The notes under the pieces are model-generated. The model saw only the letters and a program-made list of their open reading frames with translations. It had not been told where the DNA came from and did not search any database. Position numbers and translations under genes: made by a program. DNA of 64,000 nt from Plumapathes pennacea (lineage: Eukaryota; Cnidaria; Anthozoa; Antipatharia; Myriopathidae): the NCBI GenBank assembly GCA_964036295.1, contig OZ038463.1, positions 27,577,069-27,641,068 on the forward strand, given 5' to 3'. The number at the start of each line of letters is the position of its first letter. Position 1 is the stretch's first letter. This document shows positions 610 to 46,255 of this stretch, piece by piece.

Positions 610-3254
610 TTGCTTGTGACGTCACAAGCTTTAAAATGGAGCGATTTTTTTTTTTTTCTGGGTTAGACAGATGCATGCGGTGATTGGTTCATATTATCAT
701 GTGATTTGTGATGACGTTGTGATCAAGTGACTTGGCGGGCGAGCAGTTTCGCCATTTTGAAGACAGCAAGTTGCTTGCCTTAGTTGGCTCTGTGGATTAT
801 TTTATGGACCGCTCATCTTACTTACAAACGCATACCCCGGCTGCGGTAGACCCATACTAAATTTCATTGAGCGGTTTTGGCTTGGGTCGGTCCGTTCAGC
901 CTCAAAAGCCATATTGAAAGCCATGAAAGCAAATGCAATGAACTTATCAATGAACTGCATAACTATGCACAACTGTACAGAAATGTACAAAGAATCTGAC
1001 ATCCAGAACCTTGAGAACTTGAAGGAACCAGCTGAACGAAGCCGCTCGACATACAAAGACGAGAACCTGTGTAAAGACGGCGATTCTTGACAAGCGCTTG
1101 ATAGCAGATTATATGGAACTGTTTAGTATGAGGGTGAACTTGAAGGTACTTTGTATTCTTTTACTTTGTATTATTCTTGCTGATACAAGTAAAGCGTCAG
1201 AAAATCTGACTTTTGTTTGGGATCAAAATTTCACTCTGCTGTGCATTTATGTTGTTGCGACATTTTGGCTCGGTGCCATGAAGGTCAAACAATCAGTGGA
1301 ACAGATGGCGTTGTTATTTGAAAATTGGGAAATGGCTGAGGAAAAAGTGACCGTTGGTAGATCTCGCTTCGCTCAGTTTTATTGTATTCCCACAAATGTT
1401 TATGTGAAAGAAAACCGAAGTCCTCCAAGACGAAGTCGTGAGCCAAGCCACGTACCCTTGAATAACCTTTCACGCATTTTGAACAAGAGTAGAAAAAGCA
1501 GGCGACTAATACAAGAATACATTTCAAAGAATGTCCCAAAGTCGTCAAAAGTCCATGGTTATACCCGAGCTTACGTACTTCACAATGCTAATGCGTTCCG
1601 AGAACGTGCATGTAAACAACATGAAAACAATAAAAAGCCACAGATGGAAATGGAAAGAGAAAATTAGGATCAATAAACCATCGCTGCGAGAAAGCTAGAA
1701 GCTCAAAAAGAAGATTGCCAAAAGTAACCGAGGTGCTAAGATACGTTTGTATTTTAAAATGTGTTAAAAAACAGGCATTGCAAGATCAGACGTACTCAGA
1801 GATCAAAATCATAGAACCAAGTACAATGGGTTTTCTCTGTCAAGGGATATAGAAAAAAACTCCGGTCCTTCAGTTGTTGATTCAAACAAAACGATCATCG
1901 GTTGGCTTTCTGGATGCACGGAAGCCATACTTTAAGAGCGATTTTGGCTTGCATTGTTTTTAAGCGTCGGAAGACTTGAAAATAGCCGTGCACAAATGCT
2001 TGATGTGTTACCAGCGGGACCCCCGTAAAGTACAAAGGGTTGTGTTTTGCAAATGCTCGATTATAGATACCACTTCAAACAATGTATCTGTGTTGTGAGC
2101 AATATTTGTGTGAAAGAACATCGAATAAGTAGTAGAAGACGAGTCGAAACTTGATAGAACTTGAACTTTTCCCTGCGGGCAGAGCGTCTCCCTTTGTCGG
2201 AAACTCTGCGGCTTTGTGTAACGCGCGGCGTATACGAACAGTCGGCGTTTAACTTCGTTTTGCGTGCAGTAAAGGTTCTTTGTTTATTGTCTGAGGATAT
2301 TGAATTACTAATAGGTTTGAGGCAAATATCACGCGAGATTAAGATACAAGATCTGTCAATGAAATGTCACGAGCATAATATCATAGAACGGGGAATCCCG
2401 AATCATCAGCTACTTAGCTTTCAATCACGCCGCTTTAACAAAAGCAGGAAAGACCGGCAGGCGATTACATCGAGAATATTTGTCACTGAATACCTCGAAG
2501 TCTTCAAAAGCTCAAGGTTGATATCCGACTATCCGAGCCGTAATGTTCGCTCCACAAGCCCGTGATGCACGCCTTTGTTGTCACGGTATTCAAACGTCTG
2601 CAGCTTCCGATAGAGATTAATTTCGTATCGACCCAGAATTTTGCGTTAAAGCTTAATGCATAGCAATCTTGCACATATTAGTGATCAGACTTGTACATGT
2701 AGGATGAGTAACGTCTGAGATGGCTTTTTCATACGAAGTAATTTCATCATGGGAAGTGTCATGTTTTAATGTGCTACAGAGATAAGTCTGAAAGCTTTCA
2801 ATTACAGCTACTTAAGATGTCGGGTATTCCCCAGTCAATCCCATTACAAAATGACAACACAGTTCCTCCACAAAACATGTCAGCTTGAAAATTCACTCAA
2901 CAAGGTTGCCAGGTTGTATAGCAAGCGTCACACAAGTACTGTCACGTGCATCGGAAAGCAATGAAAACTGGGTTGTTGCAAACGAAGAATATTCCTACGG
3001 GGCCTTCGATAATTGTTTTCTCTCAATTATTATAATACACTTTTTCGTGAATATCTGTTTGACTGAAATTAGAAGAAAAGAGGGCAAGAAAAATAAAGGG
3101 AGCTCTTGGATCCGTCATGTGCAAAAACTGACTCGGCTATAATATCTTTTGCATATAAACGCACGACAAAAGTTCCTCTCCCGGGACCCCGCGTGTCTCT
3201 ATTCATTGTACTAATGACGTCACAAGCGCAATGGCCACGGGCCTGTCTTGTTTA
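610..3254 (+). repeat. Large repeat family LR, copy 1 (no nested MITE)
   Basis: This 2.6-kb unit is repeated at 18569-21576 and 26898-29918 with very high identity, and in part at 31180-31863. It starts with TTGCTTGTGACGTCACAAGC, a palindrome centred on a perfect CRE (TGACGTCA), and ends after TGACGTCACAAGCGC and GGGCCTGTCTTGTTTA. A poly-T tract, an inverted CCAAT box, an E-box-like word and CGCCATTTT follow the start. This copy lacks 22 bases present in copy 3 (ATG TGGGAGGTGG...), so its first frame has no start codon. It has the empty site TTA 2766-2768 where copies 2 and 3 carry a MITE. No clear target duplication or transposase was found. Confidence 0.85.
1113..1667 (+). CDS. Hypothetical secreted or membrane protein, second frame of repeat LR (copy 1)
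   Basis: From ATG 1113 the frame reads MELFSMRVNLKVLCILLLC, a good signal-peptide-like hydrophobic run ending near DTSKA, then a second hydrophobic run (LCIYVVATFWLGAM). A basic tail follows, rich in R, K and S (SPPRRSREPSH, ILNKSRKSRR). It is 185 residues long and intact only in this copy. Copy 2 has a stop where this copy has a Trp (NWEMAEE), and copies 2 and 3 differ by small indels near residue 40. In partial copy 4 the first and second frames are fused in phase, so this may be the second half of one ancestral protein. The family is not recognised. It may be a non-functional repeat frame. Confidence 0.35.
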   Translation: MELFSMRVNLKVLCILLLCIILADTSKASENLTFVWDQNFTLLCIYVVATFWLGAMKVKQSVEQMALLFENWEMAEEKVTVGRSRFAQFYCIPTNVYVKENRSPPRRSREPSHVPLNNLSRILNKSRKSRRLIQEYISKNVPKSSKVHGYTRAYVLHNANAFRERACKQHENNKKPQMEMEREN

Positions 3255-6127: not shown

Positions 6128-6433
6128 AAGAATATATTAATAAGACAAAAGAATATATAAAAATTCCTGAAGTGGCAGGGCATTCTGCAGTTGCTCTGAA
6201 TCCTGTTTAATGTAATATATTACGATTTCATCATATTGTTTGCAATAAAATAAGTGCCTTTGCTACACTACAATCATGTTTCCCTAATGGGTTGTCTATA
6301 AAACGAAGACCGAAGACCGAAGACCCAAAAACGAAGACCCCCCTTTTTTTCTGTTGTATCATCACGAAAAGTCACAACATGTCGTAAAACATAACTTATA
6401 CAACGAAAAGACCATTCAGCGTTGAAATAACCA

Positions 6434-7360
6434 GGGTCTTCGTTTTATAGTTTACCCCCACCAAAACTACAAAACGAAGACCCCCTTAAATTCGGCTCAA
6501 AGTTTTGTAAACAACACTAAATGCGCTCGAAAACTACATTTCAGCAACTAAAAACACTAAAAACGCGCATATCTTAGAAATTGATCAGGGTCTTCGTTTT
6601 ATAGTTTACCCCCACCAAAACTACAAAACGAAGACCCCCTTAAATTCGGCTCAAAGTTTCGTAAACAACCTCAAATGCGCTCGAAAACTACATTTCAGCA
6701 ACTAAAAACACTAAAAACGCGCATATCTTAGAAATTGATCAGGGTCTTCGTTTTATAGTTTACCCCCACCAAAACTACAAAACGAAGACCCCCTTAAATT
6801 CGGCTCAAAGTTTTGTAAACAACACTAAATGCGCTCGAAAACTACATTTCAGCAACTAAAAACACTAAAAACGCGCATATCTTAGAAATTGATCAGGGTC
6901 TTCGTTTTATAGTTTACCCCCACCAAAACTACAAAACGAAGACCCCCTTAAATTCGGCTCAAAGTTTCGTAAACAACCTCAAATGCGCTCGAAAACTACA
7001 TTTCAGCAACTAAAAACACTAAAAACGCGCATATCTTAGAAATTGATCAGGGTCTTCGTTTTATAGTTTACCCCCACCAAAACTACAAAACGAAGACCCC
7101 CTTCAATTTGGCTCAAAGTTTCGTAAACAACACTAAATGCTCTCGAAAACTACATTTCAGCAACTAAAAACACAAGGAACGCGCATAGTCTTAGAAACTT
7201 GTCAGGGTCTTCGTTTTATAGTTTACCCCCACCAAAACTACAAAACGAAGACCCCCTTCAATTCGGCTCGGGACTTGTAAGACAATGTTCAATGCATTCG
7301 AAAACTACATTTGAGCAACCGAAATCACTAGTAACGCGTATATCTTAAAAATTGATCGGG
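6434..7360 (+). repeat. 154-bp tandem array in the left inverted end
   Basis: The word GGGTCTTCGTTTTATAG recurs at 6434, 6588, 6742, 6896, 7050 and 7205, with a decayed seventh at 7359, giving a period of 154 (once 155). Units 1 and 3 share 'ttttgtaaacaacact' while units 2 and 4 share 'tttcgtaaacaacctc', so the array grew as a 308-bp dimer. Later units are more diverged. The right end of the element has only about two units. Confidence 0.95.
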
Positions 7361-7860
7361 GTCTTCGTTCACCATAGTTGCCCCCACCAAAACTATACAA
7401 ACAAAGACACCTTAAAATGCGCACGGCTAAAAATACGCACACATTTAAGTGCTTGCTGTATTTGCGGAGAACACTGAGCAAGTAACATGTTATGCTATCA
7501 TTTCCGGAAGCTCGTTTGGACAATAGACAATGAATAAATAAACCGGCAAATGAATAAGTCGATAAATCGACGCTGTGAGTGGAAGAACTAAAAAGGAAAA
7601 ACACCGTATCTGAGGATATTAGTATAATTTTCGTCCTTGTCGCATTGAATCAGCATTGAATCAGCACGCTCACACCTTTATTTAACGTTTCTCGCTGCAA
7701 AATTACTGCATATTAAAGAATGTGACACATCTGCTAAGCGTCATGTATTAGCTGACACCCGGCTTTGTTCAAAAAATGTATCGACCCCATGTAGCAGCAG
7801 GCATCATCATATTAGCGGAAGCCTCGTGTTATCGAGGTTTCCTCAGGCAGTCCATTTAAT
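7361..7860. other. Element interior upstream of the kinase frame
   Basis: This is unique sequence between the left tandem array and the kinase frame. It should contain any promoter for the cargo, but no clear box was identified. A minus-strand frame at 7305-7604 has no recognisable features. Confidence 0.4.
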
Positions 7861-9890
7861 ATGGCTTCAAAACTACCGTGCATCATACCTAAAAGTATTG
7901 ACTGTTCGGGCATTTTTGTCTACGATTATCGAAAATTCTTTCACAAAGAAGAAATCGGTAAAGGCAGCTTCGGTTCCGTATACACGGCCAATGTTCCGAG
8001 TGATGATGGTGGGCGAGGTGAGAAAGTTGTGATCAAGAAATTGCTCAGCCAAGACTTGGAAGTTAAGAAGAACTTCGTCAAGGAGGCAAGAATCTTACAG
8101 AATCTAAAACATGCAAACATTGTAAGTTTAAAGGGAATTTGCAATGCACCATTCGCCCTGGTCATGGAATTTGTCTTCTTTGACTTTGAGCCCTTTGGCG
8201 GCAAGACCAAAGTCAGCTCCCTCGAGGATTTTGTATCTTATGTGGACTGCTTTGATTGTAAAGGTTTCGACAGTGCGCATTTGTACAAGAAAGTCTGCAA
8301 GACATTGCCTTGGCCCTGGAGTACCTGCACGGCAAAATGGTCGCTCACAGAGACATGAAACCTGCGAACGTCTTGGTGGACAACAGTCACTATCGTTATT
8401 TAAGTGGAGCTGCTATTGAGACGGCCTGGCTGGAGTGTCCCTTAGTCTGTAAGCTCGCCGATTTCGGAGAAAGCCGCTCCAGAGAAATTCATACAAGGAC
8501 TGCATTCAGTTCAAAGACCAGCAACGTTCAGCGAGGTACGCCTGTGTACATGGCTCCAGAGCTACTGGTAGACGAAATACGACTGACTGTTGCGACATTT
8601 GAAGACCTAAAAAGGGCGGATGTTTGGGCTTTCGGAATGACTTTGTTGGTTTTTCTGAATCCTTCCAGCAAATATCCGTACAGCGAAGAACTGCAAGATG
8701 CTACATCTAAGGGCCAGGGCAGTAAACTGCAACACCTTCAAGCTCTAATGAAAAAGAAGCAACTGCCACTTCAACCACTCAAATACCAGCACAAGCACGC
8801 AAATGAATGGTACACGGTACAAAAGATCTACAAAGCTTGCACCGCATTTGAGCCAAAGAATAGACCTAGTGTCACTGAAGTTCTCACTATGATCGACCAG
8901 GAAGCTTGTGTCTCCTCTATGGACCTACATTTGAAGGTCAGCCAAGCCACCGCACTCGAAGATCATGATGGTCACGTGGCCCAGGTTGTTCAGCAACGGG
9001 GGCAAGTACCTCATTTGCCCCACCCGGAGAATGATGGCACGAATGCATGTGCCTTTCTAAGTGTGCAAATAGCGCATGCCATTCATCAGCTACACAGGGA
9101 CAATAAATGGAGCAAGGAGAGCGTATGGTTGGACATCGCTAGAGCCGCAGAACAACTGATCATAGAATTGCCCCTTGCCATCACCAGCACAGAAACAAGG
9201 AGCAAATGTACGATGCACTCTATGCGTACACCCTTTTAAGAAAGACTGGGTGTATTCCTGTAGATTATAATCTGTCAGAAGAATTTTTAACACCTGACCC
9301 TGTCTTCTCCGAGAAAGGAAGAAATGAACTCCTTCGCATCTTGAATAGAATGGCATTGATGGAGGGACTAAGCATTGCCGTCTACACCTGCGAGCCTGTT
9401 GTTTTCAATGTTGGCTGCTTCAACGGTGTCATTTTCATCCTAGACACCCACCCTATCCCGGAGGCAATAGGCGGACGAGGAAAGGGACTACTTAAAGTGT
9501 TCTCGCATGTAGAGGAAGAGTCTTGTGAAGGAATTTGTCAGTGGATTTGGCAACCATCCATTCACACTGCAGATGTTGTCGGAGGTGCACAGGTCGTGCA
9601 AATCGTGTAACCGCGATTTCTGCCACAAAAGAAGGATAATACCATTTGATTTGGTTTTATCACATCCGGAACGGTGGTACTATCCAGTAAATGGAGATTG
9701 GTCCAACAAGAGGGTGACAACAAAGGAAACAACGCGATACTACCACGCTTCAAAAGCCTGCATTTTGAAGCGTTTCCCTTATTTTAGTGCAGCGGACTAC
9801 CTTCAAATCCCAGCCAATACTGCCGCTCTTTTGAAGGACTCGCACAAAGCATATTTGTATGATGAATTTGGTCTGACAGTAGACCCCTGA
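7861..9890 (+). pseudogene. Protein kinase fused to a cysteine-peptidase-like C-terminal region, three frameshifts
   Basis: From ATG 7861 the frame shows a complete kinase domain: Gly loop IGKGSFGSVY, the Lys in VVIKKLL, the Glu in FVKEARIL, HRDMKPANVLV, LADFGES, VYMAPELL and ADVWAFGM. All catalytic residues are kept, in the style of TKL kinases. After about residue 350 comes a second region with GTNACAFLS, VYTCEPVVFNVGCFNG and ILDTHPIPEAIGG; the Cys in NACAF and His in DTHP look like a papain-fold peptidase pair, which is inference. A final part has CKSCNRDFC and HPERWYYPVNGDW and ends FGLTVDP. Three indels break the frame, near 8295 (one base lost in V-L-Q-D-I), 9190-9200 and 9520. Restored length would be about 675 residues with no introns. 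It lies wholly inside the Mutator-like element. Either a dead cargo gene or a consensus with indel errors. Confidence 0.7.
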
Positions 9891-10566
9891 CTTTCCTTGG
9901 TCTTCTGGCTGCAGTTTTGTGTTTCATATATGTTAACATTGACATTGATGACAATTTTTTGGGAGAATGTGTTTGTTACACTCGTATAATCCAAAATGGA
10001 TTATTTGATGGCCACTGAGATAGACTCCCGACAAGCTGGGCTGCAGCAGTATATGGCTGCATATGAAATCAAATTACATGCAGCGGTAGTACGACCGCAT
10101 GTTCGTTTTGTTTCGTTTAGAAAAACCAGGTCTAATTTTTTCACATCAGAAGATAGGGTATGATATTCAAAAGTTCGGGTTCTCGAAAAAAATCATTTTC
10201 ATTTGTTGTCACGGGGCAGAGACAGGAATGCCATAGCCTCCGTTCCAAGTGTATTAGATTATTTTTGACCAGTAATCCTTTTATAAAATTTTTATAAAGG
10301 GCTTATTTTTTGTTGGTGCGAGCAAGCATATGTATCGTACTTACTGTGTAGTACGGCTCTCCATTTTATAGAGGCCAAACGAGAGCACGTGATCGTTAGA
10401 CCTTAATGACTCTACACCGGCATTTCTGGTTCATGTTCATATTTCTGGTTCATGTTTATTTCAGTAATACAACGCCAAAGATTTCACTCACTTGCGGTTT
10501 ACACCACCTTTTATAGTGCGCCGCCGCGTTTAATAAAAAAAGTTTGAGTGCATTGTCTCATAAGTT
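9891..10566. other. Element interior downstream of the kinase frame
   Basis: Non-coding AT-rich sequence between the kinase frame and the right inverted end. Nothing further seen. Confidence 0.4.
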
Positions 10567-10931
10567 TTAAGCCGAATTTAAGGGGGTCTTCGTTTTGTAG
10601 TTTTGGTGGGGGTAAACTATAAAACGAAGACCCTGATCAATTTCTAAGATATGCGCGTTCCTAGTGTTTTTAGTTGCTGAAATATAGTTTTCGAGCGCAT
10701 TTGAGGTTGTTTACGAAACTTTGAGCCGAATTTAAGGGGGTGTTCGTTTTGTAGTTTTGGTGGGGGTAAACTATAAAACGAAGACCCTGGTTATTTCAAC
10801 GCTGAATGGTCTTTTCGTTGTATAAGTTATGTTTTACGACATGTTGTGACTTTTTGTGATGATACAACAGAAAAAAAGGGGGGTCTTCGTTTTTGGGTCT
10901 TCGGTCTTCGGTCTTCGTTTTATAGACACCC
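10567..10931 (-). repeat. Right inverted end of the Mutator-like element
   Basis: Reading in reverse, this matches 6289-6750 in order: short GAAGACC repeats, the T tract, 'ctgttgtatcatcac', 'ccattcagcgttgaaataac', then about two 154-bp units of the type with 'tttcgtaaacaacctc'. The two ends therefore share a head but differ in unit number. Confidence 0.9.
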
Positions 10932-10984
10932 TTCCCTAATGTATTTGTGTACCTGTGTACTGGCATACCCATTTTCTTTGTAGT

Positions 10985-11405
10985 GTTCCAGCTTGAGGCT
11001 GCAGAATTTCTGCACCTGTATTCCAGCCTGAGGTCGCAGAATTTCTGCGACCATTGTTTTAGCTTGAGGCTGCAGAATTTCTGCGGCCTATGTTCCAGCT
11101 TCAGGTCGCAGAATTTCTGCGACCAGTGATCTAGCCTGAGGCTGCAGAATTTCTGCGGCCTATGTTCCAGCCTGAGGCTGCAGAATTTCTGCAGCCTATG
11201 TTCCGGCCTGAGGTCGCAGAATTTCTGCGACCAGTGTTCTAGCCTGAGGCTGCAGAATTTCTGTGGCCTATGTTCCAGCCTGAGGCTGCAGAATTTCTGC
11301 AGCCTATGTTCCAGCCTGAGGCTGCAGAATTTCTGCAGTCTGTGTTCCAGCCTGAGGCTGCAGAATGTCTGCGGCCTGTGTTCCAGCCTGAGGCTGCAGC
11401 CTGAT
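10985..11405. repeat. 36-bp minisatellite with near-palindromic core
   Basis: About twelve units of 35-36 bp, each with GCTGCAGAATTTCTGC or GGTCGCAGAATTTCTGC, and spacer 'ctatgttccagcctgag'. The core is almost its own reverse complement. Because 36 is a multiple of three the array leaves a long open minus-strand frame (10796-11467), which I treat as an artefact. It starts about 45 bp after the Mutator-like element's right target duplication. Confidence 0.9.
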
Positions 11406-12126
11406 TTTGCTAGCCAAGGCTTGCAGAATTTAGCGGACATAGGATTGTACTTAGTGAGATTCATCAATTTTAAGAAACTTCCCAGGAGAAAGTTCGAAAT
11501 CTCCTTGCAAAGAAGTTGAAGAGATGTCGTCAGGTAAAAATGTGGTGCTGATCAGAACCTTTTGCGATATTTGAAAGCTATTCTATTCACCCCTTCAGTA
11601 TTCAATATATGTCATACTAGTTTTGCAGTCAGCTTCATTAACCCAGGATTCTATTAGCAACAGTGCAGTTCGGATTCTACTAGCAACAGTGCAGTTCGAT
11701 ATTCTTTTGCCTCCAAAATCCAAAGTAGTGGATAATTGGATATGTATACAGCAGCTTGCAGAAATGTTGAGCTTTGAAATAATATATCAGTATATACGAA
11801 TATTTAGAGTGCATTTTGGGATAGACTTTGATTCTAATTGCACACAAAAGCACACTAGTCCAGAAAGATACATCAGTGTAAAAATGTGAGGATTGTTGCA
11901 TATTTCTTTAATATGTTATTTGGCATGAAAAGGTAATGTGAAACGAAACTTTTCCCATATTGCAATTGATATCTCCACATTATGTTAAAGAAATACCTAT
12001 AATATGTGGCTAAATTTTCAACGCACAGTTTGAACTGCCGTACGCGTATAGTCACTGCTATCCTGCACAACTTAAAGAGGAGTATCTCCCAGTAGTAAAC
12101 CTCTCTAGTCTATGTTCTAAATTTTC
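11406..12126. other. Spacer upstream of the ROC-COR gene
   Basis: No gene seen. It probably includes promoter, 5' UTR or an upstream intron of the gene at 12127. There is a small tandem duplication near 11650-11700 ('ttctactagcaacagtgcagttcg'). Confidence 0.4.
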
Positions 12127-15100
12127 ATGACAATTCTTTCATCAGTCCCAGCGGAAATCCTCGCTCGAGGACCAAAGGCGGTTGAAGCTTTTCATAAAGC
12201 GCTCCGGGAAGGCAAAACCCGCGTCCGACGAGTCCCCATTATGATTATTGGTCAAGAAAGAGCAGGGAAAACAAGCCTTTTGAAATCCTTAAAAGGCGAG
12301 AAGTTTGACCCACAAGAAGAGAGTTCCAGAGGAATTGCAATTGATCCTTGTCACTGTAAAGTCACTCAAGAAGTCTGGAAGGCGGGAAAAAGTGACGACC
12401 AAGATGTCACAGCTGCAGTTTCGTTTGAACACCACGCTGCTGTGCTTACTTGTAAGTACTTGGTTGGATCGCAGGAATCTAGGAGCACTGACACGCTCGA
12501 CAGAGAAGAAAAACATGTTGCAGAATTGGAGAGCGATTTTGTTTTGAAACATGATTCTCAAGATGACAGTAATACTGGACAAGGATCAGGACCTGCTAGT
12601 CCTGATAGAGGAAGCTCTCCATTCGAGTCGGGGCTGAAAGATGTAAAAGAAGAAACGCAGGTGTATCCAGAGCAGCCGGATCTACTAGTGGATACTAGAG
12701 ATAACCCAGAAGTGCTGGAAGCAGCTGGAACTATGGCGACAAACAATGACACATCGACCAACCACAAATCAGATGTTCCTGAAGAGATCATTGCCTTGAT
12801 CGAAAAATTAATGCAAAAGAAAGAACTAGAAGATGACAGTGACATCTACTGCACACTATGGGACTTTGCCGGCCAGTCCGTGTTTTATACTACTCACTCT
12901 TTATTCCTGGCCCACGGAGCGATCTACCTTCTCGTCAACGACCTCAGTAAAAGTCCAGACCAAGAGGCAGATCCCCTGAGAAAGCAAGGCTTGTTCCGAA
13001 AGCCTTATGACGACTTTAACTTTGCGAAGACCAACTTAGATTTCCTTCACTACTGGATGACGTCCATCGCATCATTTGGCAGCAACGAGAACACTGCCAA
13101 CAAAGAGTCCTCTGTAAGCCTGCCGCCAGTAATTTTTGTTTCCACCCACGCCGATACATCTTTCGGCGACGCTTCACCAAGAGATTTGGCCAGAGACGTT
13201 TTTGGTAGTCTGCAGAAGAAACCATACAAATCTCACTTGGTGGATGATTTCTTTGTTGTAGACAACACTCGGTCGGGAAGCGGTGAAGAAGATAAGGAGG
13301 TCCCTCGACTTCGCGAGAAAATCCTAGAGTTATGCCGCGAGCTGCAGAAGTTGCAAAAGGACATTCCACTGAAATGGCTGAAGTTTGAAAAAACCCTGAA
13401 AGCTACTGTGCGCGAGGGTTTCCACAGCTTGAAGTTTTCCGAGGCAGAGAAAGTTGCTCTTGATGTGTGCGGCATCACTGACGAGAATGAATTCCGTGCG
13501 GTGTTGGACTTCCTCCATGACCACAGAATCTTGGTTCATTTTGACGACTCTGCTGAACTTGATGATCTGGTTGTGTTAGACCCCCAGTGGTTGATTGACA
13601 TCCTGAAGGAAGTGATAACAGTCAAGCCGTTTGAGTCGGAGCAGGGCGATTTTGTGGAGCATTGGAAAGAGCTTGAAGATTCTGGGATTTTGAAGAAAGA
13701 TCTCCTTGAGCATGTGTGGAGGGACTTGTTAAACCGACGGAACACCATCGAAGCACTTGTCTCTATCATGGAGAAATTCAACCTCATCTGCAGATGGTCT
13801 TCATCTACTTCGACGAAAGAGTATCTGGTTCCACACATGTTGAAGTCGCAGCCAGTCAACAAGGAACTAACAGAGCTTCTGTCATCAGCTGTGGTGCCTT
13901 CACTTTTTATCAAATTCCCCTGTGTTGAATACCCACAAGTTTGTTTTTCCTATCTCATGGTTTGCCTCATTAATGAGTGGAAGAAGGAACAGCCGTGCTT
14001 CCAGCGACCGAAGCTCTTCAGGAACTTTGTTAGACTCTTCCTAAATCCATTGGACAGCTCTTCTATTGTTTTGTTTTGCCACTCGTCTGTGATAGAAATT
14101 GCGCTTTGCGCACCCACCACCCCCTCAGCCTATTTTGTCGAGACGACGTGTGGCAGGGTAGTCGGAGTCTTGCGCCGGGTTCTAAACCACATGCGCCGAG
14201 AATGCCGCTGGCTGAAATCCATGTCGTATGAGCTGTGTTTCCGCTGCCCAGTATGCTGTGAAGGCGCGCTGCAGCTGTCGAATTGCGGTACTCATCACGT
14301 GATGGACTGCATCAAAGAAGATTGTGCGCACTTCTACTCCGAGAAAGAGCTGCAGAATGCTCAAGAGTCAATCAGATGTGAGAAGTCTGAAGTTGCCGTG
14401 AACACAAAGGTGTCACTCGAAAAATTTTCGCCTTGGCTTGAGGCAAGTACCTCCTCATAGAGTATCTTGATTGTTTTAAAAACATCATTAAGTCAAAACA
14501 TAGGCAATCCTTCACACAGTAATGAAGACCACTTTGTTCTACAGTCTCTAAATTGTTGATGAGCTTAACTCTTTAGCTACTGCTCAGCATCTTCCATCTG
14601 GAATCATCGAGAATGTTCGTTTAATAACCTACCTAGCTACCCATGAACCGAGTTTCCCCACCTGCATTACTTCTACATTAAACTGAGTTCCTGCCCAATT
14701 ACAGAGGACATTTTTTCTTTTATGTGGAATTTTCTGCCTGTTTATTTTACTCTTGTTATTTCTGCAGGGCAACAGTGAACACAAGAAAAACAGAACACAG
14801 GGTATGACCATAAATTTCACGTGTTATTTCCGGTATTAGCTTTCACTTTTGTCGTTTTATCATGATCAAAACAGTTACTCTCATTATAGCAATTTCGCTA
14901 TCCATTCTTTATACAACAGCCAAAATGGCTTTTTCCCTCCCAACTGACGTCTTACCTATGATGCAATCCGCTGACAAGGTCAATGTCGTACAGAGGGCGA
15001 CAGAACGTATTAAGTTTCTTTCGGTGCAAGACAACAGTGAACACAAAGGAAACGGAGCATAGGGTATAAACACGAAATTCATTTGTTACTTGGTTCCTTC

Positions 15101-18568: not shown

Positions 18569-21500
18569 TTGCTTGTGACGTCACAAGCTATAAAATGCAG
18601 CGATTTTTTTTTTTTTTCTGGGTTAGAGATCTGCATGCGATGATTGGTTGATATTATCATGTGATTTGTGATGACGTTGTGATCACGTGACTTGTCGAGC
18701 AAGCAGTTTCGCCATTTTGAAGACAGCAAGTTGCTTGCCTTAGTTGGCTCTGTGGATTATTTTATGGACCGCTCATCTTACTTACAAACGCATACGCCGG
18801 CTGCGGTACACCCATACTAAATTTCATTGAGCGGTTTTGGCTTGGGTCGGTCCGTTCAGCCTCAAAAGCCACATTGAAAGCCATGAAAGCAAATGCAATG
18901 AATTTATCAATGAACTGCATAACTATGCACAACTGTACAGAAATGTACGAAGAATCTAATATCCAGAACCTTGAGAACTTGAAGGAACAAGCTGAACGAA
19001 GGCGCTCGAGATACAAAGACGAGAACCTGTGTAAAGACGGCGATTCTTGACAAGCGCTTGATAGCGGATTATATGGAACTCTTTAGTATGAGGGTGAACT
19101 TGAAGGTACTTTGTATTCTTTTACTTTGTATTATTCTTGCTGATACAAGTAAAGCGTCAGAAAATCTGACTTTTGTTTGGAATCAAAATTTCACTCTGCG
19201 TGCATTTATGTTGTTGTTGCGAGATTTTGGCTCGGTGCCATGAAGGTCAAACAATCAGTGGAACAGATGGCGTTATTATTTGAAAATTAGGAAATGGCTG
19301 AGGAAAAAGTGACCGTTGGTAGATCTTGCTTCGCTCAGTTTTATTGTATTCCCATAAATGTTTATGTGAAAGAAAACCGAAGTCCTCCAAGACGAAGTCG
19401 TGAGCCAAGCCACGTACCATTGAATTACCTTTCACGCATTTTGAACAAGAGTAGAAAAAGCAGGCGACTAATACAAGAATACATTTCAAAGAATGTCCCA
19501 AAGTCGTCAAAAGTTCATGATTATACCCGAGCTTACGTACTTCACAATGCTAATACGTTCCGTGAACGTGCATGTAAACAACATGGAAACAATAAAAAGC
19601 CACAGATGGAAATGGAAAGAGAAAATTAGGATCAATAAACCATCGCTGCGAGAAAGCTAGAAGCTCAAAAAGAAGATTGCCAAAAGTAACCGAGGTGCTA
19701 AGATACGTTTGTATTTTAAAATGTGTTAAAACACAGGCATTGCAAGATCAGACGTATTCAGAGATCAAAATCACAGAACCAAGTACAATGGGTTTTCTCT
19801 GTCAAGGGATATAGAAAAAAATTCCGGTCCTTTAGTTGTTGATCCAAACAAAACGATCATCGGTTGGCTTTCTGGATGCACGGAAGCCATACTTTAGGAG
19901 CGATTTTGGCTTGCATTGTTTTTAAGCGTCGGAAGACTTGAAAATAGCCGTACCCAAATGTTTCATGTGTTACCAGCGGGACCCCCGTAAAGTACGAAGG
20001 GTTGTGTTTTGCAAATGCTCGATTATAGATACCGCTTCAACCAATGTATCTGTGTTCTGAGCAATATTTGTGTGAAAGAACATCGAATAAGTAGTAGAAG
20101 ACGTGTCGAAACTTGATAGAACTTGAACTTTTCCCTGCGGGCAGAGCGTCTCCCTTTGTCGGAAACTCTGCGGCTTTGTGTAACGCGCGGCGTATACGAA
20201 CAGTCGGCGTTTAACTTCGTTTTGCGTGCAATAAAGGTTCTTTGTTTATTGTCTGAGGATATTGAATTACTAATAGGATTGAGGCAAATATCACGCGAGA
20301 TTAAGATACAAGATCTGTCAATGAAATGTCACGAGCATAATATCATAGAACGGGGAATCCCGAATCATCAGCTACTTAGCTTTCACTCACGCCGCTTTAA
20401 CAAAAGCAGGAAAGACCGGCAGGCGATTACATCAAGAATATTTGTCACTGAATACCTCGAAGTCTTCAAGGTTGATATCCGACTATCCGAGCCGTAATGT
20501 TCGCTCCACAAGCCCGTGATGCACGCCTTTGTTGTCACGGTATTCAAACGTCTGCAGCTTCCGATAGAGATTAATTTCGTATCGACCCAGAATTTTGCGT
20601 TAAAGCTTAATGCATAGCAGTCTTGAACATATTAGTGATCAGACTTGTACATGTAGGATGCGTAACGTCTGAGATGGCTTTTTCATACGAAGTAATTTCA
20701 TCATGGGAAGTGTCATGTTTTAGGCCCCGTCCACACTACGCCGGATAAATTTGAAAACGCAACTTTATTCTTACGGTTAGGAAAACGCTCTTCAAAGTGG
20801 ATAAATTTGAAAGCGCCGGCTTTGCGTTTTGGTGTGGACGAAAAACATTTTGAAAACGGAACTTTTCGAAAACCCTGACTCACGTGGCCACGTCAAGTGG
20901 TTTCAAAGATTGTCAGGGACGTTTGTAGAGCAATAACAATACATTTGGGCCCGGAAACATTTTATCCGTTTTCCAGTGTGGACGGAAAACATTTCTTGCG
21001 TTTTCAGAGTGAAAGTTGCGTTTTCAAATTTATCCGGCGTAGTGTGGACGGGGCCTTAATGTGCTACAGCTACTTGAACATGATGCACACGCTGGGAAGA
21101 TGAGATAAGGCTATTACGCTGTCTTACAGCTACTTAAGATGTCGGGTATTCCCCAGTCAATCCCATTACAAAATGACAACACAGTTCCTCCACAAAACAT
21201 GTCAGCTTGAAAATTCACTCAACAAGGTTGCCAGGTTGTATAGAAAGCGTCACACAAGTACTGTCACGTGCATCGGAAAGCAATGAAAACTGGGTTGTTG
21301 CAAACGAAGAATATTCCTACGGGGCCTTCGATAATTGTTTTCTCTCAATTATTATAATACACTTTTTCGTGAATATCTGTTTGACCAAAATTAGAAGAAA
21401 AGAGGGCAAGAAAAATAAAGGGAGCTCTTGGATCCGTCATTTGCAAAAACTGACTCGGCTATAATATCTTTTGCATATAAACGCACGACAAAAGTTCCTC

Positions 21501-27409: not shown

Positions 27410-29064
27410 CAAGCGCTTGATAGCGGATTATATGGAACTGTTTAGTATGAGGGTGAACTTGAAGGTACTTTGTATTCTTTTACTTTGTATTATTCTTGCT
27501 GATACAAGTAAAGCGTCAGAAAATCTGACTTTTGTTTGGAATCAAAATTTCACTCTGCGTGCATTTATGTTGTTGTTGCGACATTTTGGCTCGGTGCCAT
27601 GAAGGTCAAACAATCAGTGGAACAGATGGCGTTATTATTTGAAAATTGGGAAATGGCTGAGGAAAAAGTGACCGTTGGTAGATCTTGCTTCGCTCAGTTT
27701 TATTGTATCCCCACAAATGTTTATGTGAAAGAAAACCGAAGTCCTCCAAGACGAAGTCGTGAGCCAAGCCACGTACCATTGAATTACCTTTCACGCATTT
27801 TGAACAAGAGTAGAAAAGCAGGCGACTAATACAAGAATACATTTCAAAGAATGTTCCAAAGTCGTCAAAAGTTCATGATTATACCCGAGCTTACGTACTT
27901 CACAATGCTAATGCGTTCCGTGAACGTGCATGTAAACAACATGGAAACAATAAAAAAGCCACAGATGGAAATGGAAAGAGAAAATTAGGATCACTAAACC
28001 ATCGCTGCGAGAAAGCTAGAAGCTCAAAAAGAAGATTGCCAAAAGTAACCGAGGTGCTAAGATACGTTTGTATTTTAAAATGTGTTAAAACACAGGCATT
28101 GCAAGATCAGACGTATTCAGAGATCAAAATCACAGAACCAAGTACAATGGGTTTTCTCTGTCAAGGGATATAGAAAAAAATTCCGGTCCTTCAGTTGTTG
28201 ATCCAAACAAAACGATCATCGCGGAAGCCATACTTTAAGAGCGATTTTGGCTTGCATTGTTTTTAAGCGTCGGAAGACTTGAAAATAGCCGTACACAAAT
28301 GCTTGATGTGTTACCAGCGGGACCCCCGTAAAGTACGAAGGGTTGTGTTTTGCAAATGCTCGATTAAAGATACCGCTTCAACCAATGTATCTGTGTTCTG
28401 AGCAATATTTGTGTGAAAGAACATCGAATAAGTAGTAGAAGACGTGTCGAAACTTGATAGAACTTGAACTTTTTCCTGCGGGCAGAGCGTCTCCCTTTGT
28501 CGGAAACTCTGCGGCTTTGTGTAACGCGCGGCGTATACGAACATTCGGCGTTTAACTTCGTTTTGCGTGCAGTAAAGGTTCTTTGTTTATTGTCTGAGGA
28601 TATTGAATTACTAATAGGATTGAGGCAAATATCACGCGAGATTAAGATACAAGATCTGTCAATGAAATGTCACGAGCATAATATCATAGAACGGGGAATC
28701 ACGAATCATCAGCTACTTAGCTTTCACTCACGCCGCTTTAACAAAAGCAGGAAAGACCGGCAGGCGATTACATCGAGAATATTTGTCACTGAATACCTCG
28801 AAGTCTTCAAGGTTGATATCCAACTATCCGAGCCGTAATTGTTCGCTCCACAAGCCCGTGATGCACGCCTTTGTTGTCACGGTATTCAAACGTCTGCAGC
28901 TTCCGATAGAGATTAATTTCGTATCGACCCAGAATTTTGCGTTAAAGCTTAATGCATAGCAGTCTTGAACATATTAGTGATCAGACTTGTACATGTAGGA
29001 TGCGTAACGTCTGAGATGGCTTTTTCATACGAAGTAATTTCATCATGGGAAGTGTCATGTTTTA

Positions 29065-41964: not shown

Positions 41965-42560
41965 AGGGCGGTATGGCGTTTCGTTGCGGACAAAATTGTA
42001 TAAAACCGTATAGAAGTCAAGATTTGCAAATCATGAGTCGAGAAGTGTAAAAAATGAGTCGATATTTACAAAAACGCAAGTCCAGATTAGTGACATTTGA
42101 GTCGAGAATTTTGCACGGTGTGTGAGTCGAGATTTTGCACGGTGCGAGTCGAGATACGCTGACCAGTTTTAACGCTGTCTCATCCGCATGCGACTGCAAA
42201 AGTAATGGCGACGCGCTGGCTGCCAAACGTGGGTGATTTCTTCTTTTCATTGACAAGATTTATAGAGACTTCGGAGAGACAGTTAAGTTCAGCATCCTAT
42301 GACACTTCAGAATTCATAATTTGTTGCCTTGATGAATACGAGAGGACGCTGTCGATATTGTTATTAAGGTTTGTGGAGACGAGGTCTCCAAAAGCCAAAA
42401 GAGAGTTTGTATGGGAAACTACGAATGACCTGAATATAGCGGCGCTCAAAGTGCTGAAATACAATTATAGAAGTGCTTACTTTAATACCCGCTTTGTGTG
42501 TGTGATTTCTTGTGTTTCTGGGTCGTTTTGGGCCTGGAGATATCACACACAAACACACAG
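41965..42560 (+). repeat. Repeat RD copy 1, with a conserved short frame
   Basis: It begins with several degenerate ~25-bp units built on GAGTCGAGATTTTGCA, then ATG 42205 opens MATRWLPNVGDFFFSLTRFI and LSSASYDTSEF...CLDEYER, VETRSPKAKREFVWETTNDL. The reverse copy at 45661-46255 is about 97% identical. The frame is kept over 95 codons in both copies, then differs. The protein is not recognised. Confidence 0.6.
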
Positions 42561-42589
42561 TTTATTACACCAATAATTTCATAAGTAAC

Positions 42590-45660: not shown

Positions 45661-46255
45661 CAGTGATATCTCCAGGCCCAAAACGACCCAGAAACACAAA
45701 TCACACACACAAAGCGGGTAAGTAAGCTCTTCTATAATTGTATTTCAGCACTTTGAGCGCCGCTATATTCAGGTCATTCGTAGTCTCCCATACAAACTCT
45801 CTTTTAGCTTTTGGAGACCTCGTCTCCACAAACCTTGATAACAATATCGACAGCGCCCTCTCGTATTCATCAAGGCAACAAATTAAGAATTCTGAAGTGT
45901 CATAGGATGCTGAACTTAACTGTCTCTCCGAAGTCTCTATAAATCTTGCCAATGAAAAGAAGAAATCACCCACGTTTGGTAGCCAGCGCGTCGCCATTAC
46001 TTTTGCAGTCGCATGCGGATGAGACAGCGTTAAAACTGGTCAGCGTATCTCGACTCGCACCGTGCAAAATCTCGACTCACACACCGTGCAAAATTCTCGA
46101 CTCAAATGTCACTAATCTGGACTCGCGTTTTTGTAAATCTCGACTCAAGTTTTACACATATCGACTCGTATTTTGCAAACCTGGACTAATGTTTACACTT
46201 CTCGACTCATGATTTGCAAATCTCGCCTTTTACACGGTTTTATATAATTTTGCCC
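45661..46255 (-). repeat. Repeat RD copy 2 (minus strand)
   Basis: Reverse copy of 41965-42560, with the frame MATRWLPNVGDFFFSLARFI opening at 45997 and the CTCGACTC/TTTGCA units at 46050-46230. Confidence 0.65.

Follow-up and report, generated by a model that had tools for sequence, protein, structure and literature searches.

Does an animal transposon that appears to carry a signalling kinase hold a captured host gene, or a gene of its own? The question is raised by an element of about 4.64 kb in a 64,000-nucleotide stretch of the genome of the black coral Plumapathes pennacea (contig OZ038463.1; the whole stretch is referred to below as the window), which the initial annotation had read as a Mutator-like element (MULE) of the Pack-MULE kind with a captured signalling kinase. 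Our analysis points to another answer, namely, that the window element is probably a deleted copy of a MULE whose full form encodes a kinase, a peptidase-like region, and a transposase as one spliced protein. The parts of the element are as follows (TSD, target-site duplication; TIR, terminal inverted repeat; positions are those of the window).

6280-6289, plus strand: left TSD TTCCCTAATG, 10 bp, or 9 bp with GGGTTGTC as the left tip
6290-6668, plus strand: left TIR of 379 nt, with 96% complementarity to its right counterpart
6432-7416, plus strand: 6.4 copies of a 154-bp subterminal tandem repeat, with AAAACGAAGACC on either strand as a putative binding site for the transposase
7861-8939, plus strand: protein kinase part, broken, with one base fewer at about 8298 than the longer copy; HRDMKPAN and DFG kept; 3' boundary approximate
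8940-9553, plus strand: putative peptidase-like region, with NACAFLS from 9042 and ILDTHP from 9437, both read by eye; one base fewer at about 9182
9553/9554, plus strand: internal deletion junction, where the window copy lacks about 4.6 kb that the longer copy has, with a 2-nt overlap at the joint
9552-9890, plus strand: 3' end of the transposase frame (112 codons and the stop), in a different reading frame from the peptidase-like part
10553-10931, minus strand: right TIR, pairing with the left one
10932-10941, plus strand: right TSD TTCCCTAATG, 10 bp

The inverted ends and the perfect direct repeat on either side of them confirm that this segment was inserted as one unit with Mutator-type ends, as had been proposed, with two adjustments of size: the inverted identity, first given as about 365 bp, measures 379 nt, and the duplication, first given as 9 bases, becomes 10 bp when the next base of the perfect repeat is included. 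Because the tip of most other family ends is GGGTGTC, while that of the left window end is GGTTGTC, and because 12 of the 19 two-ended family members described below have 10-bp repeats, the simplest reading would be a 10-bp duplication with one substitution in the left tip. The left end lies inside the array of 154-bp repeats, and the element contains 20 occurrences of AAAACGAAGACC, at most one mismatch being allowed, compared with a single one in the rest of the window and 0.51 expected in all. A 36-bp minisatellite of 11.6 copies (window 10984-11399) starts about 40 bases past the right TSD.

The first 412 bases of the element were used to probe the genome (290 Mb, 24 contigs), which gave at least 102 matches with 40 of 139 candidates scored, and 27 stretches around matches were taken for study: L009 and L010, which hold the longest member, and loci L011 to L035. 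Eight of these 25 loci (L023, L024, L026, L027, L028, L030, L031, and L033) have no paired ends within the stretch, and the two-ended elements, the window copy included, number 19, with sizes in the family from 0.7 to 9.7 kb. Perfect target duplications flank 13 of the 19 (12 of 10 bp and one of 9 bp, the latter in the longest element), and the 13 sequences all differ from one another; the check proposed at the outset, a search for several elements with 8-10 bp duplications, was thus positive. In L021 and L034, a single mismatch interrupts a 10-bp duplication, the damaged end of L025 shows an 8-bp repeat that is offset, and our script detected no target duplication in L013, L014, and L016. In L013 (418-2304), inspection by eye shows a stretch common to both flanks, which a few additional bases on the right have shifted out of register.

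The tandem 154-bp repeats in the ends and the minisatellite adjoining on the right might speak for a host segment or satellite lying between chance repeats, with no transposon at all, but this reading is refuted by the target duplications: the perfect ones are too many and too varied, and when one element's left flank is paired with another's right, none of the 342 mismatched pairings reaches 9 bp. We regard it as scarcely credible. Two hallmarks of Mutator elements are present, target duplications within the range of 8-11 bp and long TIRs (379 nt at 96% in the window element; end 300 nt at 99.3% in the 9.67-kb copy), and the window element is very likely a MULE. Related end-like sequences of the GGGTGTATCGAAAACGAAGACCCC type adjoin family members (L011, 4488-4509; L033, 1275-1295, 1386-1407, and 2024-2045) and perhaps represent a sister family.

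What the full form of the element looks like can be read from the only full-length copy found, which spans C1:10262204-10271876 (L009 and L010), is 9,673 bp long, and is flanked by the TSD ATAATATTG; the near identity of its two ends suggests a recent insertion. An open frame at L009 1770-3533 contains a kinase domain (PF00069, E = 1.1e-34) followed by the region with NACAFLS and ILDTHP, and a second frame at L009 5719-8418 encodes a transposase-like sequence of 899 amino acids. The latter gave a weak match to the MULE profile PF10551 (E = 0.11, 13.4 bits, cut-off 27.6), a match to SWIM, the type of zinc finger seen in many MULE groups (16.6 bits for the whole frame; 19.0 bits, E = 0.001 on a 233-amino-acid piece; cut-off 19.6), and, over nearly the same residues as the MULE match, one to the bacterial IS256 model (E = 0.039, 12.9 bits, cut-off 150). 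By eye, it shows a D-66-D-141-E spacing and a C-x2-H that follows the second D, a layout typical of MULE transposases. A candidate for the partner element envisaged in the initial annotation has therefore been found, its MULE type being suggested by these weak profile matches and motifs. The 899-amino-acid frame had no sequence match in the PDB and its relatives no pattern match in viral contigs, in which the 17-base end motif had 7 exact matches, near a rough chance estimate. A PHROGs match of the frame to an uncharacterized family (E = 0.0026) covers only 20 residues and was not used.

In the full-length copy, the two frames appear to be parts of a single gene. Seven exons chosen by eye in L009 (1770-3532, 3922-3959, 4167-4370, 4670-4882, 4986-5198, 5349-5413, and 5719-8418), five of them short and lying between the kinase-peptidase frame and the transposase frame, define six predicted introns, all GT-AG with matching phases, and the joined product would be one protein of 1,731 amino acids, open throughout. 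The chance that all five middle exons are open in the needed frame is about 1.6e-8, as calculated from base composition before allowing for splice-site choice. The predicted product starts with a Ser/Thr-type kinase and the peptidase-like region, continues through a linker encoded by repeated exons into a DDE transposase of MULE type that includes a SWIM-like finger, and ends in a Cys-rich C-terminus. Within the linker, exons 4 and 5 duplicate one another, with the same length and phase, and an IDLTV stretch resembles, by eye, a SUMO-interaction motif. With the kinase predicted in one frame with the transposase, it would be part of the transposase gene and not cargo. A match of L031 to part of the linker (72%) was isolated and on the opposite strand and was dropped.

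Aligned with the 9,673-bp copy, the window copy is 99.3% identical over element positions 1174-3062 and 98.5% identical over 7678-8915, and it has lost about 4,617 bases in a single internal deletion, 2 bases being common to both sides of the joint. The single open 2-kb frame reported earlier does not survive this comparison, in which the two missing bases at about 8298 and about 9182 break the kinase frame and the kinase/peptidase-like sequence runs, out of frame, into the last transposase codons; the statement that no transposase is visible holds for an intact one, though not for the final 112 codons, which are present with their stop. Near element position 1174, the window copy has about 0.2 kb (window 7466-7667) that is absent from the 9.67-kb copy, and its right end has, from the alignment coordinates and element lengths, four fewer 154-bp repeats; together, these differences indicate that it descends from a sister element and not directly from the full copy. 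The window element is thus most likely a non-autonomous member of a MULE family that has lost its middle by deletion.

The same kind of loss is seen elsewhere in the family. L011 (3.7 kb) is a second deletion derivative, in which kinase residues 1-151 are joined to transposase residues 679-899, and decayed kinase pieces (residues 1-160, 41-76% identity, with stop codons) occur in 10 of the 25 loci (L014 to L021, L026, and L032), with a further piece of 20 residues in L022. Transposase matches in the window and in L011 to L035 start at residue 679 or later, so that among the 19 two-ended elements the catalytic region is present only in the 9.67-kb copy. The kinase remnants in ten other loci imply that the kinase belongs to the family and did not arrive with the window copy.

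These observations bear on the Pack-MULE reading, in which a MULE has captured a host kinase gene. Kinase domains are common among host genes, which counts in its favor. Plant MULEs are described as capturing gene fragments (PMC6431247), and an insertion at the sea anemone Nv1 locus has been called suggestive of a pack-MULE (PMC9842752). Against it stand the single predicted frame uniting kinase and transposase in the full copy, the decayed kinase pieces in ten other family loci, and the transposase 3' end retained in the window copy. With a full relative that holds the kinase-peptidase frame together with the transposase, and with the window element explained by internal deletion, we consider a captured kinase quite improbable; an old capture that was later made part of the family is still conceivable.

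The kinase assignment itself was borne out, since window frames matched both PF00069 (E = 4.4e-21) and PF07714 (E = 1.3e-14). Among the best 60 of 1,603 PDB sequence matches, JAK2 ranked first, followed by SOBIR1, PTK7, and RIPK1. HRD is kept, and the HRDMKPAN of the element is presumably of the Ser/Thr type; the window copy has DFG and the full copy NFG, and two copies cannot show which state may be the older. The label of the peptidase-like part, which was based on visual inspection of Cys and Asp-x-His motifs, gained no such support: no family in Pfam (including Ovarian Tumour [OTU], a peptidase type), NCBIfam, or PHROGs matched at E ≤ 10, the PDB gave two chance-level matches to peroxidase-type proteins (E = 1.6 and 1.8), and a single-sequence fold model (mean pLDDT 37.1) was unusable. 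In viral contigs, relatives of the region gave 13 pattern matches, none confirmed, and a degenerate peptidase motif gave 2 exact matches.

Several points weigh against the explanation as a MULE with a single kinase-transposase gene: (i) the fused order is seen in one full-length copy only, and that copy has NFG where active kinases as a rule have DFG, so that kinase activity may be dispensable; (ii) the MULE, SWIM, and IS256 scores all lie under their cut-offs; (iii) the duplicates of exons 4 and 5 match at 275 of 287 bases over exons and introns together, and since the likeness is no greater in the exons than in the introns, it is no sign of selection or coding; (iv) substitutions between copies are few (a script counted 12 in 1,762 aligned bases of the window and full copies, two of them at the deletion edge), and no purifying selection is visible (nonsynonymous to synonymous changes 6:3, 1:0, and 5:1); (v) the ten decayed kinase copies are mostly of one layout and may represent one subfamily, not ten independent witnesses; and (vi) the kinase open frame begins with an ATG and terminates at a stop immediately beyond the predicted donor, and the first Met of the transposase frame, at residue 71, is far upstream of residue 298, the first catalytic Asp. 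Point vi leaves room for a MULE with two genes, a kinase-peptidase gene and then a separate transposase gene, with the linker exons in the transposase gene or in neither. Maize MuDR also has two genes. This arrangement is nevertheless unlikely in our view, as the strong donor GTAAGT overlaps the kinase stop and the frame goes on, in matching phases, through the five short exons into the transposase.

If the single spliced gene is accepted, a mechanism can be proposed in which (i) the transposase would bind the copies of AAAACGAAGACC that recur in the long ends, (ii) it would cut at GGGTGTC and insert with a 9-10 bp stagger, (iii) faulty gap repair would produce internal deletions, and (iv) the shortened copies would be mobilized by transposase supplied in trans. 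Transposases are known to be regulated by host kinases and host proteolysis, and the attached kinase and peptidase-like parts might tune the transposase itself through phosphorylation, stability, or timing, a guess that we offer tentatively. In its strongest form, the proposal is that one lineage of MULEs makes a polyprotein of a DDE transposase, an active kinase, and a cysteine-peptidase-like domain, through which the transposase would steer its own stability, its timing, or the host response, and here we see the chances as evenly balanced. The surprising part is that a single gene appears to unite a kinase with a transposase of MULE type, a conclusion drawn from one full copy and predicted splicing. 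If true, a kinase and a peptidase-like region inside a transposase gene would make a self-regulating transposition enzyme, the kinase of which is open to direct assay, and what looks like a gene carried as cargo by a deletion derivative may in fact belong to the transposon itself.

Elsewhere in the window, a single long open frame of 779 amino acids (12121-14460) matches the domains Roc (E = 7.6e-15) and COR-A (E = 7.9e-20). Open frames that resemble one another occur in three blocks (1023-2565, 19291-20497, and 27814-28838), perhaps a unit copied within the window, and the same open frame with a tandem repeat occurs in opposite orientation at 42098-42576 and 45701-46104, which looks like an inverted duplication.

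As regards known systems, plant Pack-MULEs (PMC6431247) resemble the window element in that MULE ends enclose sequence that looks like a gene, while an intact transposase is missing, but in the window element this sequence most likely comes from the gene of the family itself, reduced by loss of its central part. Helentrons have a transposition protein with an OTU-like cysteine protease, to which the peptidase-like part may be a parallel, but they differ in being rolling-circle enzymes, and the account in PMC6431247 mentions no kinase for them. Plant MULEs with tandem TIRs (PMC3310237) also have repeated terminal sequence, whereas in the present kinase-bearing family 154-bp repeats lie subterminally, within and beside long TIRs. 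No title among the literature matches listed concerned a kinase-transposase transposon, Repbase being outside the scope of that search, and in the 2019 MULE survey a kinase appears in no group of Table 1 and the word is absent from the main text (PMC6446971); as far as this literature goes, a MULE of this kind was not found and would be new. Among the elements tabulated there, the cnidarian MuDR-6_HM (group 14) has an extra OTU motif and no kinase is listed for it (PMC6446971); our peptidase-like region matches no Pfam family, OTU included. The same survey describes the animal Mutator-like groups Phantom, Ghost, and Spectre, of which Spectre has 8-bp duplications and a cnidarian Ghost a 177-bp TIR (PMC6446971). 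Phantom, with duplications of 8-10 bp, TIRs of 18-613 bp, and SWIM in some members (PMC6446971), is like the present family in duplications and TIRs and perhaps in SWIM, but the present family is set apart by a kinase that Table 1 of that survey lists for none of the three groups.

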